DNA of 35,143 nt. It comes from a virus. Under the pieces are notes generated by a model. It was given only the letters and a program-made list of their open reading frames with translations, made no database searches and was not told the DNA's origin. Position 1 is the first letter of the stretch, and the number at the start of each line of letters is the position of its first letter. Shown here piece after piece: positions 15,289 through 26,537 of this stretch. Made by a program: the position numbers and the translations under genes. The DNA is taken from positions 1-35,143 of IMG/VR virus record IMGVR_UViG_3300009163_000099. One strand, given 5' to 3'.

Positions 15289-15296
15289 TATAAATA
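15289..15296 (+). promoter_or_regulatory. T4-like late promoter TATAAATA before 117-aa virion protein
   Basis: An exact TATAAATA lies in the 45-base gap after the tail fibre gene, 29 bases before the next ATG, followed by the ribosome binding site AGAGGAA at about 15311-15317. Confidence 0.85.
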
Positions 15297-15324: not shown

Positions 15325-15678
15325 ATGGCAAATCCAAATATCGTAAGTGTCGCAACAATTAATGGTAACACAGCAGTCGCAAACGTCACAACAGTCATAT
15401 CTACTTTAGTTACTAATTCTGCGGCAAGTGGTAAAGTTTACAAAGTAAACGCATTATACTTAACTAATGTTACTTCTGGTACTACTGCATACGCAAACGT
15501 TGACATTGTAAGATCAACTGCTAGTTACAAATTAATAAACAGCATGGATGTTCCATACAAAGCAACAATTGACGCAATTTCAAAATCTTTATATTTGCTT
15601 GAAGGTGATACATTAAGAGTCCAAGCGGCTACTAATAGCACAATTCAAGCAATTTGTTCTTTCGAGGAGATTTCTTAA
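15325..15678 (+). CDS. conserved small virion structural protein
   Basis: This 117-aa protein (MANPNIVSVATINGNTAVAN, then SGKVYKVNALYLTNV and LLEGDTLRVQA) belongs, from memory, to a small all-beta protein family repeatedly found next to fibre genes in T4-like cyanophage and pelagiphage genomes and detected in virions. The pattern looks like a compact beta-sandwich: strand-rich, low in charge, with 'EGDTLRVQA' near the end as in phage decoration or fibre-associated proteins. It has its own late promoter. Its stop overlaps the start of the glycine-rich gene (TAATG), so the two products are likely made together. No enzymatic residues are evident. Confidence 0.75.
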   Translation: MANPNIVSVATINGNTAVANVTTVISTLVTNSAASGKVYKVNALYLTNVTSGTTAYANVDIVRSTASYKLINSMDVPYKATIDAISKSLYLLEGDTLRVQAATNSTIQAICSFEEIS

Positions 15679-16904
15679 TGGCTATTAATTCAGCATTTAT
15701 TTGGAGTTTAAAAGATATCAATAAAGCAAAGGGTAATTTTACTTATCCAACTGCTGGTTTTGATCTTGAATATATCGTTGTTGGTGGTGGTGGCGCTGGA
15801 GGTTCTATAGGATATCCAACACCAAGCCCAGCAAACGGCGACAAAGGTGGCGGCGGCGGTGCTGGTGGCTTTCTGACAAACGAAGGTAGCACAGCATTCC
15901 CAGTCATTTCAGGCGTAACATATACTGTCACAATCGGTGCTGGAGGTACTGTTACCTCCACAACCGGTGCAACATCGGGCGCAAATACAACTTGGAACGA
16001 TGGCGGTCTAGGGGGCGCAAACTCGGTACTTGCTTGGGGTGGCGGTGGCGGAGGTGGCTACGCAAACGTAACTTCTTTCGGTGTCGCTAGACCCCACCAA
16101 GGCAGAGATGGTAATGTGTCCACAGGTTATCGTTGGGGTGGCAATGGCGCATCTGGCGGTGGTGGAGGCGGTGGGTGGCATTGGGGCGTTGATGGCGGTG
16201 AGGCTATGTTAGTGCCTAACATAGCGAGCGCAAACGCCCTCTATCCATTAGGTGTTGGATATACTTATACTTACTATCCAGCGCCACAAATTCCAAGCCC
16301 ACCGACACCTTTGGCAAGAATCGGTTTACAAGGAAATTTTGGCGGCACTGGTGGTTCCTATGGAACACACGGCGGAGGTGGCGGAGGTGGCGCCGGAGGC
16401 TTTGGAATTAACGCATTAACCGGACCGGCTAACGCTTATATAGGTGCCGACAACGCCGCTGGTGGTATAGGTCGATTAGGCTTTGATGGAAACTATTATG
16501 CTGGTGGCGGTGGTGGCGGTCTGCAAATTTCAAGTCCTACTGTTTCACTGGGAAATACTACGGTAGCGGCCGGCGGCGCTGGCGGTGGCGGTAATGGCGC
16601 ATTGTGGGTGAGGCCAGCAAACCCACTCGGTTGGCAAGCCACACAAACAAATCCAGCGCCAACAGGATTCCGCCAGTCTGCTGGAACTGCAAACAGAGGT
16701 GGCGGTGGAGGTGGTGCGGTCACCAACAATTCCGACCCAGTCAATCCAAATGTTACTGGTTTGAACGGTGGCTCAGGTGTTGTTATCCTACGATACTTAG
16801 CAAGTACTCCTGATGCATCTGGAACAACAGGTAGTCCATCACTTTCAACTTCTGGTGGTTACAAGTATTATACATTTACTGCTTCAGGCACTATCTTCTG
16901 GTAA
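15678..16904 (+). CDS. glycine-rich fibre/adhesin protein
   Basis: The ATG at 15678 was chosen over the in-frame ATG at 15654 because it overlaps the upstream stop (TAATG), follows a GAGGAG site at a normal distance and gives the phage-typical start MAINSAF. The 408-aa product has glycine runs (IVVGGGGAGG, GGGGGAGGF, GGGGGGGY, GGGGGGGW, GGGGGGGAGG and others) separated by short hydrophobic loops, and ends in GGSGVVILRYL, the usual close of phage glycine-rich (Gly_rich-type) domains. Such proteins resemble the polyglycine-helix adhesin tips of T-even gp38 type, so a receptor-binding tip is plausible. The coding DNA is visibly richer in G and C than its neighbours because of the glycine codons. 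Confidence 0.8.
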   Translation: MAINSAFIWSLKDINKAKGNFTYPTAGFDLEYIVVGGGGAGGSIGYPTPSPANGDKGGGGGAGGFLTNEGSTAFPVISGVTYTVTIGAGGTVTSTTGATSGANTTWNDGGLGGANSVLAWGGGGGGGYANVTSFGVARPHQGRDGNVSTGYRWGGNGASGGGGGGGWHWGVDGGEAMLVPNIASANALYPLGVGYTYTYYPAPQIPSPPTPLARIGLQGNFGGTGGSYGTHGGGGGGGAGGFGINALTGPANAYIGADNAAGGIGRLGFDGNYYAGGGGGGLQISSPTVSLGNTTVAAGGAGGGGNGALWVRPANPLGWQATQTNPAPTGFRQSAGTANRGGGGGGAVTNNSDPVNPNVTGLNGGSGVVILRYLASTPDASGTTGSPSLSTSGGYKYYTFTASGTIFW

Positions 16905-16913
16905 GGAAATAAA

Positions 16914-17357
16914 ATGGCGCATTTTGCACAATTAGATGAAAATAATGTTGTTATTGATGTTATCGTTATAGATAATTCTGTTACGCATAGTCACACAATT
17001 GCAAATGGTGATGAATCTGAAGAACGTGGTATTGCTTTCTGCAAACAACTTCGTGGTGAAGACACACGTTGGGTTCAAACTAGTTATAATAGAAAGTTTA
17101 GAAAACATTTTGCACAACTCGGATATACATATAGTGAGGGACTTGATGCATTCATTGCACCATGTCCAGTGACTGGATACATACTAAACAATGAAACATG
17201 TGAGTGGGAATGTCCAGTTGCACCTCCAGATACAGCAAATAGATACTTATGGAATGGAACTGAATATGTGCTAGATGAAAGCGTTGTATTAATGAGAACT
17301 CCAGTTGCATATTTAAATCCATTTACGAATGAACCTGGACCTAACAATCCGTTTTAA
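16914..17357 (+). CDS. conserved aquatic-phage protein of unknown function (MAHFAQLDENN family)
   Basis: This 147-aa protein begins MAHFAQLDENNVVIDVIVID and contains RGIAFCKQLRGEDTRWVQTS, NFRK-like KFRKHFAQLGYTY, a CPVTGYILNNETCEWECPV stretch and a proline-rich end. I recognise this layout from many T4-like phages of marine and freshwater bacteria, where it lies near tail fibre genes. Its function is unknown. It has three cysteines near residues 82-100 (PCP, ETCEWEC), which may bind metal or form contacts. The gene starts 9 bases after the glycine-rich gene with an AAGGAA site. A fibre-associated or fibre-assembly role is inference from location. Confidence 0.72.
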   Translation: MAHFAQLDENNVVIDVIVIDNSVTHSHTIANGDESEERGIAFCKQLRGEDTRWVQTSYNRKFRKHFAQLGYTYSEGLDAFIAPCPVTGYILNNETCEWECPVAPPDTANRYLWNGTEYVLDESVVLMRTPVAYLNPFTNEPGPNNPF

Positions 17358-17374
17358 TTATAAGGAATAATAAT

Positions 17375-17770
17375 ATGAGTGAAATTGGTGGAAGCATTGA
17401 TCTTGGATATTTTGGAAATATTTGGGTCAAACAATTCGCATTTAATACTATTGGTCAATACTCTCTTGGACATAAACACGATTTTGATCATGTGACACTT
17501 TTAGTGCAAGGTAAAGTTTTAGTTGAAGTTGAAGGATTTGAACCTAAAGAATTTGTTGGTCCAACTTTCATTGTCATAAAAAAAGAACACAGACATAAAT
17601 TTACTGCATTGTCAGATAAATGCATTTGGTATTGTATTTTTGCTTTACGTGATCTTGATGGTAATGTAGTGAATTCGGTAGAAGAATTCTATGCATCTAG
17701 AAATAATCCATATAACGATTTAGATAGCGGAGATGCCGTAGAACTTGAAAAGAAAACTACACAATATTAA
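17375..17770 (+). CDS. cupin-fold protein
   Basis: This 131-aa protein carries a cupin motif 1 (GHKHDFDHVTLLVQG, residues 32-46, with H33, H35 and H39 as likely metal ligands) and a motif 2-like segment (GPTFIVIKKEHRHKFTA, residues 62-78, with H72 and H74). Cupins of this size are single-domain metal-binding beta-barrels; they may be enzymes (dioxygenases, isomerases) or binding proteins. It has an AAGGAA site and lies immediately before two Fe(II)/2-oxoglutarate oxygenase genes, which also use a double-stranded beta-helix fold. This suggests a small oxidative modification cassette embedded in the fibre region. The substrate is unknown. Confidence 0.8.
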   Translation: MSEIGGSIDLGYFGNIWVKQFAFNTIGQYSLGHKHDFDHVTLLVQGKVLVEVEGFEPKEFVGPTFIVIKKEHRHKFTALSDKCIWYCIFALRDLDGNVVNSVEEFYASRNNPYNDLDSGDAVELEKKTTQY

Positions 17771-17785
17771 TTAATTGGAAATATT

Positions 17786-18406
17786 ATGAAAACTGATAAT
17801 GAAATGATTGGGTTGTTCCCAATCCCCGTGATGGCTTCACATATTGGTAGAGAATTTACACACGAAGAAAACCACTTTATGAGTAATCTACCCACAAGAT
17901 TGAATCGGGGTAATGAAAGTACTATTAGCAAAAATGTTTTAGATTATCCAGAACTCAAAGATTTACACGACTTCGTTCAATCTAAAATTGATGAATATTT
18001 AAATACTGTCATTTGTCCAGTCGATGGCGCTTCAATTTATGTCACACAATCGTGGTTAAATATTACAGCAAAAGATCGATTTCATCATTCGCATAGCCAC
18101 AGCAATAGTTATTTGAGTGGTGTTCTCTATATTGATACTCATCCATCTGAAGATAAAATATATTTTACATCGAATAATACAAGCCGTTGGCCATTATTGC
18201 TTGAACATAAAGAATTAACTGCATTCAATTCTACCGACTGGTGGTTACCGGCACAAACAGGAAAAATTTTATTATTTCCATCCAGTCTTACGCATTATGT
18301 TCCTAATGTTCAAACCGACACACATAGGGTCAGTTTAGCATTTAATACATTTCTTAGAGGCAATATTGGCGATGCAGATTCGGCCGCAGGGATAACACTA
18401 CCATGA
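17786..18406 (+). CDS. 2-oxoglutarate/Fe(II)-dependent oxygenase (2OG-FeII_Oxy_5-like)
   Basis: This 206-aa protein has the start LFPIPVMAS typical of the 2OG-FeII_Oxy_5 group, then QSWLNI with RFHHSHSHSNSYLSGVLYID (about residues 98-117), which supplies the first metal-binding histidine(s), and FPSSLTHYVPNV with THRVSLAFN (H170 as the distal histidine, R181 as the likely 2-oxoglutarate-binding arginine). Cyanophages often carry such genes; substrates are mostly unknown and protein hydroxylation is one possibility. The stop overlaps the ATG of the next oxygenase (bases 18403-18406), so the two enzymes are translationally coupled. Confidence 0.88.
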   Translation: MKTDNEMIGLFPIPVMASHIGREFTHEENHFMSNLPTRLNRGNESTISKNVLDYPELKDLHDFVQSKIDEYLNTVICPVDGASIYVTQSWLNITAKDRFHHSHSHSNSYLSGVLYIDTHPSEDKIYFTSNNTSRWPLLLEHKELTAFNSTDWWLPAQTGKILLFPSSLTHYVPNVQTDTHRVSLAFNTFLRGNIGDADSAAGITLP

Positions 18407-18972
18407 AAATGAATTTAAATGATTACGTCATTAAATTTGACGAACAATTTGGATCAGAAATATGCGAAACCGCTGTTCGAGAGTCTGAAGAATATAATTA
18501 TTGGCAACAACATCAGTATAGTAATCCAAACACTGGCGAAGCCTTTTCACAAAATGGTGATAGAGAATTGGATATATCAAACTCTGATTTTTCAGTTAAA
18601 CCTGTTATGATGTATTTGATTTGGGATGCACTCAAAAAATATACCACACAATTAAATATGCCTTGGTTTGGATCGTGGGTTGGTTACAGCGATTTGAGAA
18701 TGAATCGATACAAAGAAAATCAAATCATGAGTCTGCATTGCGATCATATTCATACATTATTTGACGGTGAACGAAAAGGCATTCCAATTTTAACAGTTTT
18801 AGCCGGTTTAAACAATGATTACGAGGGTGGTGAATTGATCCTGTTTGAAGACACCGAAATCAAAATGAATACGGGTGATGTTGTTATTTTTCCATCAAAT
18901 TTTCTGTATCCCCACAAAGTAAATCCCGTCACAAAAGGCGTTAGATACTCTTGTGTTTCTTGGGCGTGGTAA
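18403..18972 (+). CDS. 2-oxoglutarate/Fe(II)-dependent oxygenase (prolyl 4-hydroxylase-like)
   Basis: This 189-aa protein shows the full 2OG-Fe(II) signature: H-x-D (LHCDH, H112 and D114), the GGELILFED strand (about 142-150), the distal histidine in FLYPHKV (H171) and the 2-oxoglutarate arginine in GVRYSCVSW (R181). The spacing and the GGEL element fit the prolyl-4-hydroxylase-like branch (2OG-FeII_Oxy_3). Unlike many phage oxygenases it is a single intact domain. It overlaps the preceding oxygenase by 4 bases and is the last gene before the hairpin and late promoter of gp13. The substrate is unknown; virion proteins or host surface molecules are candidates. Confidence 0.9.
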   Translation: MKMNLNDYVIKFDEQFGSEICETAVRESEEYNYWQQHQYSNPNTGEAFSQNGDRELDISNSDFSVKPVMMYLIWDALKKYTTQLNMPWFGSWVGYSDLRMNRYKENQIMSLHCDHIHTLFDGERKGIPILTVLAGLNNDYEGGELILFEDTEIKMNTGDVVIFPSNFLYPHKVNPVTKGVRYSCVSWAW

Positions 18973-18979
18973 ATACACT

Positions 18980-19013
18980 ATCTCCTTTTTATAAATAGAA
19001 TGAAAAAGGAGAT
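18980..19013 (+). promoter_or_regulatory. perfect hairpin covering the gp13 ribosome binding site
   Basis: Bases 18980-18990 (ATCTCCTTTTT) are the exact reverse complement of 19003-19013 (AAAAAGGAGAT), giving an 11-bp stem with a 12-base loop. The right arm contains the gp13 Shine-Dalgarno AAGGAG (19006-19011), and the loop holds most of the TATAAATA promoter. A transcript coming from upstream would fold and hide the site; one starting near 19003 lacks the left arm and cannot. Confidence 0.8.
18990..18997 (+). promoter_or_regulatory. T4-like late promoter TATAAATA before gp13
   Basis: An exact TATAAATA lies 20 bases before the gp13 ATG at 19017 and inside the loop of the hairpin at 18980-19013. 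T4 late transcripts begin about 6 bases past the octamer, i.e. near 19003. Confidence 0.85.
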
Positions 19014-19016
19014 GAA

Positions 19017-19760
19017 ATGGCAAAACCCACATCAAGAGAACTATTTAAAGAATACTGTCTCCGTAAATTAGGCAAACCAGTCATTGAGATTAACGTAGAT
19101 GACACTCAAGTAGAAGATAGAATTGACGAAGCACTTGTTTACTGGCAAGACTATCACTTTGATGGTTCTCAAAAAACATACATTGCACATCAAGTAACTG
19201 AACAAGATGTTACAAACAAATATGTTGATATTCCATCTACAATAAATGGTGTGATTAACATATTCAACATTGGCGACAGTTATTCAACAAACAATCTGTT
19301 CAACATGCGATATCAAATTGCATTGAACGATCTGTATGCATTCAATACCACAAACTATGCACCATACTTCATGGCACTTCAAAACGTTGCGCTTGCTGAA
19401 GAACTATTTGTGGGTAAACAAGCATTAAGATATAATCGTCACGGCAATCGTTTATACATCGACATGGCATGGGCAGAAAAAACAACAATCGGTGAATACA
19501 TTATCATTGAAGCATACGAAGGTGTTGATCCTGAGGTGTACACCGATGCTTGGGGTGATTGGTGGTTGCAAGATTATGCAACAGCACTCATCAAAAGACA
19601 ATGGGGCGACAATCTTAAAAAGTTCGAAGGACTTACAATGCCAGGTGGTGTAACATTCAACGGGCAAAAGATTTACGATGAAGCAATCGATGAAATTACT
19701 AAACTAGAACAAGAAGTGATTTCTTCATTTAGTTTGCCTGTTACAGATATGTTTGGATAA
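19017..19760 (+). CDS. 13: gp13 neck (head completion) protein
   Basis: This 247-aa protein matches the gp13 family: SRELFKEYCLRKLGKPVIEI, the DDTQVEDRIDEALVYWQDYH acidic helix, VDIPSTINGVINIF, and the C-terminal YTDAWGDWWLQDYATALIKR / QWGDNLKKFEG block with the MPGGVTFNGQ motif. T4 gp13 is 309 aa; the shorter form is usual for cyanophage-like relatives. gp13 closes the filled head and, with gp14, connects it to the tail. Its ribosome binding site AAGGAG is inside the hairpin described separately. It is followed 2 bases later by gp14. Confidence 0.95.
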   Translation: MAKPTSRELFKEYCLRKLGKPVIEINVDDTQVEDRIDEALVYWQDYHFDGSQKTYIAHQVTEQDVTNKYVDIPSTINGVINIFNIGDSYSTNNLFNMRYQIALNDLYAFNTTNYAPYFMALQNVALAEELFVGKQALRYNRHGNRLYIDMAWAEKTTIGEYIIIEAYEGVDPEVYTDAWGDWWLQDYATALIKRQWGDNLKKFEGLTMPGGVTFNGQKIYDEAIDEITKLEQEVISSFSLPVTDMFG

Positions 19761-25333: not shown

Positions 25334-25903
25334 ATGGCAATTACGAAAATTTCTGAGTTGACAGCGGCAATTAAAACTGGCGCTAGATCAAACATGTTCC
25401 AAGTGGAACTTTCACAACTAGGTGGTTCAGAAGCGGCTCAGCAGATTCAAAATTGGACGTATCTATGCAAAGGCGCTCAACTACCTAGTTCAACACTAGG
25501 TCTAGTTGAAGTGCCTTTCATGGCTGGTAGAAGATTTAAAATCGCTGGCGACAGAACATTCCCAGAGTGGACTACAACAGTATTAAACGATACTAATCAA
25601 AAAATTCGTCAAGCACTTGAAGAATTACAAATCCAATATGGTGTTACGGATTACGAATCGGAACAGGCAAAAACTTCTCCAGGTGCAGAGAATACTGAAT
25701 TCCAAACAATCATTGTTAGACAATTCGATTATAGCGGAACTGAAATCTATGCATATACATTGTATAACGCATGGCCTTCAGATATCAGTACTATTGATCT
25801 TTCATACGATTCTACAGATACAGTTGAAGAGTTTACTGTTACTTGGTCTTATGATTACTTTACACTAGGTGCTGAAACTGGTGTTGGTATCACAACTAAT
25901 TAA
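25334..25903 (+). CDS. 19: gp19 tail tube protein
   Basis: This 189-aa protein (T4 gp19 is 163 aa) has the family landmarks GARSNMFQVELSQLGGSE, YLCKGAQLPSSTLGLVEVPF, GRRFKIAGDRTFPEWTTTV and IDLSYDSTDTVEEFTVTWSY at the C-terminus. It forms the hexameric rings of the rigid tail tube. It has a strong AAGGAG site and probably its own late promoter. A second tube-like gene follows 10 bases later. I consider this one the likely main tube subunit because it immediately follows the sheath gene, but the sequence does not exclude the reverse. Confidence 0.95.
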   Translation: MAITKISELTAAIKTGARSNMFQVELSQLGGSEAAQQIQNWTYLCKGAQLPSSTLGLVEVPFMAGRRFKIAGDRTFPEWTTTVLNDTNQKIRQALEELQIQYGVTDYESEQAKTSPGAENTEFQTIIVRQFDYSGTEIYAYTLYNAWPSDISTIDLSYDSTDTVEEFTVTWSYDYFTLGAETGVGITTN

Positions 25904-25913
25904 GGACTAAAAA

Positions 25914-26537
25914 ATGGCAAATGATTTTTTCAACATTAATAGATTCAGATCAACACTAGCGTCTGGTGCAAGACCAAACTTATTCAAGATCAATCTTACA
26001 GCACCAACTGATATTTCTGATCCAGAAGGTTTGTTAGCCGCTGGTGGTAACTTCTCACTTCTATGCAGATCGGCCGCAATTCCATCATATACAATTGGTG
26101 TGATTGAAGTTCCATTCCGTGGAAGAAGAATTAAACTTCCTGGCGATAGAACATACGGTGAATGGACTGTTACAGTTATCAATGACCAAAATCAAGGTAT
26201 GCGTAAAGTATTTGATAATTGGCTTGCATATATAAACAATCCAGATGGAACAGACGTAATTCGTCCAAACACTGGTGCCGCAGTTGGAGATGAAAGCAGT
26301 TATCGTACTACAGTTAGCATCGATCACTATAGAAGCGATGGTTCTATCAGTAGAAAATACGCATTGCTTGAAGCGTTTCCAACAGACGTATCTGCAATTG
26401 ATTTGTCTTATGACACTACAGATGCAATTCAAGAATTCACAGTAACATTTAACTATCACTATCTTGATGTTGGTGGTACAAGTAGTTCTGGAGAAGACGC
26501 AACTGCACCATCAGTTACAAATCGTTCTACAGTTTAA
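25914..26537 (+). CDS. gp19-like tail tube paralogue
   Basis: This 207-aa protein parallels the preceding tube protein along its length: GARPNLFKINLTAP, SLLCRSAAIPSYTIGVIEVP, GRRIKLPGDRTYGEWTVTVI, FPTDVSAIDLSYDTTDAIQE and FTVTFNYHYLDVG. It differs by an extra central loop (after DGTDVIRPN, about 115-135) and a serine/threonine-rich tail. It is therefore a tandem duplicate of gp19. Possible roles: a second tube subunit, a tube end ring (the T4 tube-like proteins gp48 and gp54 share this fold), or a minor variant. It ends 50 bases before the intrinsic terminator. Confidence 0.92.
   Translation: MANDFFNINRFRSTLASGARPNLFKINLTAPTDISDPEGLLAAGGNFSLLCRSAAIPSYTIGVIEVPFRGRRIKLPGDRTYGEWTVTVINDQNQGMRKVFDNWLAYINNPDGTDVIRPNTGAAVGDESSYRTTVSIDHYRSDGSISRKYALLEAFPTDVSAIDLSYDTTDAIQEFTVTFNYHYLDVGGTSSSGEDATAPSVTNRSTV

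Follow-up and report, generated by a model that had tools for sequence, protein, structure and literature searches.

A late promoter within a hairpin that pairs the ribosome binding site of the neck gene gp13: a probable T4-style translation switch in a viral contig

Why should the late promoter of a neck gene lie inside a hairpin that pairs the ribosome binding site of the same gene? The locus lies on a 35,143 b record of IMG/VR from an uncultured T4-like phage, analysed over its whole length (hereafter the window). It forms a single block on the + strand, with genes for baseplate, fibre-like, neck, terminase, sheath, tube, portal and head proteins. The neck gene, gp13, is preceded by two genes for 2OG-Fe(II) oxygenases, together with several others that are structural or unknown, and a late octamer at 15289 heads this set. 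ORFs were called mechanically, and all structures reported here are predictions. The features concerned are the following.

15289..15296, + strand: upstream late octamer TATAAATA, exact match; likely source of RNA reading through into gp13
18403..18972, + strand: 2OG-Fe(II) oxygenase gene (ORF; PHROG 61, E 9e-32)
18980..18990, + strand: left arm ATCTCCTTTTT, anti-SD (inverted repeat of 11 bp, 100%; 10/11 kept in the relative L001)
18990..18997, + strand: late octamer TATAAATA (exact match), lying in the loop except for the first T, which belongs to the left arm
19003..19013, + strand: right arm AAAAAGGAGAT of the inverted repeat, with the SD GGAG at 19008-19011; expected late start at 19003
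19017..19760, + strand: gp13 neck protein, head-tail adaptor Ad2 (PHROG 211, E 9e-42; tblastn matches to neck proteins)
19057..19062, + strand: GTCTCC within the coding sequence of gp13, possible competitor for the SD in the late RNA fold

The geometry of the leader is simple. The arms 18980-18990 and 19003-19013 are complementary at every position (100%) and form an 11 bp inverted repeat around a 12-nt loop, with the Shine-Dalgarno sequence (SD) in the right arm, which confirms the perfect stem of the original prediction. Its placement of the late octamer in the loop holds for seven of the eight bases; the first T, which it overlooked, doubles as the final base of the left arm. The whole segment 18980-19013 reads ATCTCCTTTT-TATAAATA-GAATG-AAAAAGGAGAT. 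On its two sides lie the stop of the upstream oxygenase, which ends at 18972 and is separated from the left arm by 7 nt, and the gp13 ATG at 19017. The predicted fold of RNA 18970-19019 has an energy of -12.3 kcal/mol against -3.4 +/- 1.7 for shuffled sequences (z -5.2). From the T4 late promoter spacing rule we infer a late start at 19003, exactly where the right arm begins, in agreement with the start proposed earlier near this position.

The octamer TATAAATA occurs 10 times in the window, always on the + strand, where 3 copies are expected, and only one of the ten, that of the gp13 leader, lies in the loop of such a hairpin. With shuffled flanks, 0.0008 stems of 11 bp are expected by chance, summed over the ten octamers. 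In a gentler test, based on duplex energy with the left arm shuffled, the gp13 leader of the window has p 0.006; both the flank and the arm shuffles preserved base composition only. All 13 sites of the form NATAAATA in the window are on the + strand as well, which fits the expectation for late promoters of a + strand late block.

This arrangement can be compared with well described systems. In T4, the genes e, soc, 49 and I-TevI have a late promoter within a hairpin that sequesters the SD, and the late RNA is made without the 5' strand of this hairpin (PMC3014915). In I-TevII, I-TevIII, segB and mobE of phage Aeh1 the ribosome binding site also lies in a hairpin, which RNA from the late or middle promoter cannot form, and the genes bearing such switches are described as late genes which lie on long transcripts for early and middle products (PMC2988022). 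The likeness to T4 e, soc and 49 which had been suggested for gp13 is supported by the geometry, the common feature (PMC3014915) being a late octamer inside an SD-sequestering hairpin. The setting differs, however: T4 e, soc and 49 sit in units with early and middle genes, whereas gp13 is a neck gene in a late-looking block, and the homing endonucleases are mobile genes silenced within early units, whereas gp13 is a core virion gene. Our duplex measure recovered T4 e (p 0.01) and did not recover T4 soc (p 0.37), so this test misses some true cases; I-TevII and I-TevIII of T4 were recovered by the same computation.

The divergent late gene pairs 26/51 and 4/53 of T4 resemble gp13 in that a late octamer occupies the loop of an SD palindrome, but there each arm is the SD of one of the two divergent genes, while the gene upstream of gp13 lies on the same strand. 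On the minus strand we found no octamer in the window and no ORF of at least 60 aa starting at the hairpin. By sequence, then, the gp13 leader combines an SD in the stem, an octamer placed so that RNA starting from it would lack the left arm, and a same-strand upstream gene; the opposite-strand upstream gene of a divergent SD palindrome is absent, and so is the combination of GC-rich stem and trailing T run that marks an intrinsic terminator.

We consider it probable that gp13 carries a T4-style promoter-in-hairpin translation switch, mainly insulating the gene from read-through. A polymerase coming from the upstream genes would produce RNA with both arms, in which the 11-bp stem would bury the SD and leave gp13 untranslated. 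A polymerase starting at the loop octamer would produce RNA that begins at or beside the first base of the right arm; without the left arm, this RNA could not form the stem, and gp13 would be translated. As a net effect, gp13 would be produced solely from its own late promoter. The main use of this would probably be to keep the dosage of gp13 independent of RNA that reads through from the variable set of genes before it; early silencing may be an additional role.

The predicted exposure of the SD is consistent with such a switch. Its unpaired probability rises from 0.02 in the read-through RNA to 0.82 when the RNA starts at 19003, which bears out, at the level of prediction, the difference between closed and open leaders that had been proposed. 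Between read-through and late RNA, no comparable change in SD exposure was seen for six further late promoters in the window; the same computation for T4 gene e gave 0.001 for the read-through and 0.65 for the late RNA. One result counts against the switch: once 60 nt of gp13 coding sequence are included, openness in the late RNA falls from 0.82 to 0.28, because the internal GTCTCC (19057-19062) can pair with the SD.

If the switch exists, then we can ask: What is it for? In T4 it is a timer, in which early or middle RNA from upstream is silenced until the late promoters fire; this role is documented for e, soc, 49 and I-TevI (PMC3014915, PMC2988022), and the original prediction assumed it for gp13. 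Oxygenase genes of a host-takeover type directly upstream of gp13 would suit it. In the window, however, a late octamer (15289) belongs to the upstream block itself, most of whose genes are structural or unknown; sigma-70-like sites are as frequent as chance predicts (36, with 36.9 expected), and early promoters are indistinguishable from chance. Between this octamer and the hairpin no terminator-like site was found on the + strand, and read-through into gp13, across the same-strand ORF 18403-18972, is plausible on this predicted terminator-free path. Since the incoming unit has a late octamer and lacks a + strand terminator-like site before the hairpin, the RNA reading into gp13 is probably late too. 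The timing role is therefore not supported in its proposed form, and we hold it to be possible, though rather doubtful; it invokes the same switch mechanism as insulation and differs from it in purpose alone. As the upstream block looks late, an insulating role against read-through suits the data better than early/late timing does.

Relatives differ in the genes that they carry between the fibre-like genes and gp13 (15654-18972 in the window). The window has oxygenases here, and the counterpart region of relatives has kinase, peptidase-like, fibre or structural genes before gp13. With this variable content, gp13 lies directly downstream of a cassette-like region.

Translational coupling would give the hairpin a different meaning. 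The gp13 site would again be closed on read-through RNA, but ribosomes finishing the oxygenase gene would melt the left arm, and gp13 output would be proportional to that of the upstream gene. The stop at 18972, only 7 nt ahead of the left arm, agrees with this and counts against the switch, as terminating ribosomes might open the stem; in the survey of viral contigs described below, too, upstream stops are usually 6-30 nt ahead of the CTCCT seed among the matches listed. However, T4 e is laid out similarly (nudE ends 37 nt before e), and its read-through RNA is about 100-fold repressed (PMC3014915). Moreover, the distance from stop to ATG varies from 26 to 71 nt among hairpin loci, and coupling leaves the position of the late octamer in the loop unexplained. 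We regard coupling as unlikely and return to the switch.

How is the hairpin distributed among relatives? We collected gp13 leaders from 305 loci, which gave 180 distinct sequences, and clustered them at 80% identity (global alignment) with one representative each; 101 clusters had a late octamer. N was allowed at the first position of the octamer, following the NATAAATA late promoter reported in cyanophage S-PM2 (PMC2984593). Among these 101 leaders, 13 had a duplex energy with p<=0.01 against left-arm shuffles, where 1.0 is expected, and five reached p<=0.001, where 0.1 is expected; the leader clusters entering these statistics share descent. The SD is paired in all 13 leaders with p<=0.01. 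When left arms were swapped among phages, the leader's own arm ranked as the single best in six cases, with about one expected. Under looser clustering, p<=0.01 was reached by 7/57 gp13 leaders against 1/54 leaders of other late genes from the same loci.

The architecture recurs with changed stems. Distant leaders have the same layout with unrelated stems, such as AGAATTTCCTCCA in L194 and GAAGATTCCTTGTTGT in L153; a third stem, ACTCCAGT, is found in the group L184, L186, L178 and L176, and CTTCCCCTT (L222) and TGCCCTCAT (L157) are further unrelated ones. The stems recurring at gp13 contain GC. A comparison of homologous gaps, which had been put forward as a check on compensatory changes, thus gives a divided answer: 13 of the 101 leaders keep the architecture with changed arms, and 79 of the 101 octamer-bearing clusters keep promoter and site and lack the hairpin by the test used, the outcome named beforehand as a refutation of the switch. 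It makes the hairpin dispensable. On the gp13 tree, hairpin state requires 14 changes, at least 10 of them forced by supported branches. Judged from these sequences, the hairpin is an optional element which has been repeatedly gained and lost, and no fixed feature of gp13.

The 79 clusters count against the switch, as does the absence of a hairpin at gp13 in the ten characterised phages that were examined. The gap before T4 gene 13 is without an octamer. In a further set, mostly of cyanophage records, gp13 mostly abuts its upstream neighbour, leaving little or no space for a promoter. In the leader L330, 70 nt upstream of gp13, an SD hairpin AAATCTCC / GGAGATTT encloses a degenerate octamer, CCTAAATA; the octamer filter missed it, so the counts of gp13 hairpins are low estimates.

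The nearest non-identical relative, L001, has a gp13 95% identical to that of the window. The left arm agrees at 10 of 11 positions; the octamer, the loop and the right arm are unchanged (100%), whereas the upstream oxygenase has only 67% identity, and 4/7 positions agree in the 7 nt preceding the arm. The hairpin would seem to travel with gp13 and not with the upstream gene, but a recombination junction at this place would look alike, and that the conservation of the left arm could reflect such a junction counts against the switch.

Does the arrangement extend beyond gp13? We scanned viral contigs for the pattern CTCCT-N(0-8)-TATAAATA-N(6-18)-AGGAG. It imposes a 5-bp seed only, and extension of the stem beyond the seed is therefore an internal test. 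The scan yielded at least 119 stretches and a control scan with CCTCT at least 120; both counts are lower bounds, which makes the raw numbers incomparable and leaves stem extension alone informative. Among the matches listed, an ORF lay downstream in an equal fraction of both scans (50/102, control 32/63). For the listed matches with an ORF downstream (53), the bases just outside and inside the seed pair in 85% of cases, against 47-49% with swapped arms. Stems ahead of an ORF in these 53 have a median of 13 bp, and 77% of them are at least 9 bp long; among the matches listed, such stems fall to 15% with swapped arms and 19% without an ORF downstream. The listed matches of the CCTCT control scan showed no stem extension.

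Stems of at least 9 bp precede 41 genes among the matches listed, 34 of them with an upstream ORF on the same strand, and the divergent type is absent (0/41). Median SD openness at the listed loci with such stems is 0.0 in the read-through and 0.62 in the late RNA. The genes include gp13 at least six times, five of these proteins being only 36-40% identical to that of the window, gp5 at least five times, gp21 and the tail tube gene (gp19) at least twice each, gp25 and the large terminase (gp17). Several homing or HNH endonuclease genes also occur among the matches listed, which speaks for the switch, since homing endonucleases are already known to employ it. The gp5 genes, for baseplate hub and tail lysozyme, have the promoter-in-loop SD hairpin in L357, L360, L377, L399 and L439. 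Another gene, in L447, was considered as a homologue of gp49, the product of a known switch gene, and rejected, having no significant similarity to T4 gp49.

A stem-loop in a short gap between genes is often a terminator, and the hairpin might also be an RNA-processing site or bind a protein instead of controlling the SD. Terminator-like sites do occur at the same spot in L118, L130, L145, L146, L205 and L229. In the window, however, the right arm is followed by GAAATGGC with no T run, and no terminator-like site was called; Rfam has no family at gathering score for the hairpin and nothing near the threshold, and stem sequences that are entirely different among relatives argue against sequence-specific binding. 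Altogether, these functions are very improbable. Least probable of all is chance pairing of T-rich sequence before the octamer with A-rich sequence before the SD: TTTT precedes several window octamers, so that part of the stem is compositional, and the shuffled-left-arm test is only modest for the window leader, but the expectation with shuffled flanks is minute, unrelated GC-containing stems recur at gp13, and in the survey stem extension is restricted, among the matches listed, to positions ahead of genes.

The idea that an SD hairpin and an upstream intrinsic terminator are mutually exclusive at gp13 was examined and rejected, a terminator being present in 1/22 hairpin clusters and 8/79 others (Fisher p 0.68). 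One pair of sister loci is of interest here: L118 has a terminator-like stem before the promoter, and L117 a 17-bp bulged SD hairpin. In this pair the two elements may be interchangeable insulators, a relation that is not significant across all leaders.

Earlier descriptions of the T4 switch concern a few late genes embedded in early or middle units, and in the literature searched, with subscription journals largely outside its scope, we found no report of a promoter-in-hairpin switch for a neck gene. We tentatively suggest, as an idea somewhat short of even probability, that T4-like phages use promoter-in-loop SD hairpins as a general means of insulation, re-invented with new stems at gp13, gp5, gp21, gp17, gp19 and gp25, with control of dosage and not early/late timing as the main use. 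If this is true, each of these virion genes is translated from its own late promoter only, despite late RNA from its neighbours. The recurrence at a core neck gene and at other virion genes suggests that phages often tie translation to promoter choice via RNA structure. For annotation we offer a signature: anti-SD, late octamer and SD, in this order. The palindromes of T4 26/51 and 4/53 (L106/L107), which arise from facing SDs, are a source of false positives for it. As a minor observation on the window itself, two neighbouring tail tube (gp19-like) genes, both assigned to PHROG 45, lie at 25334-26537.
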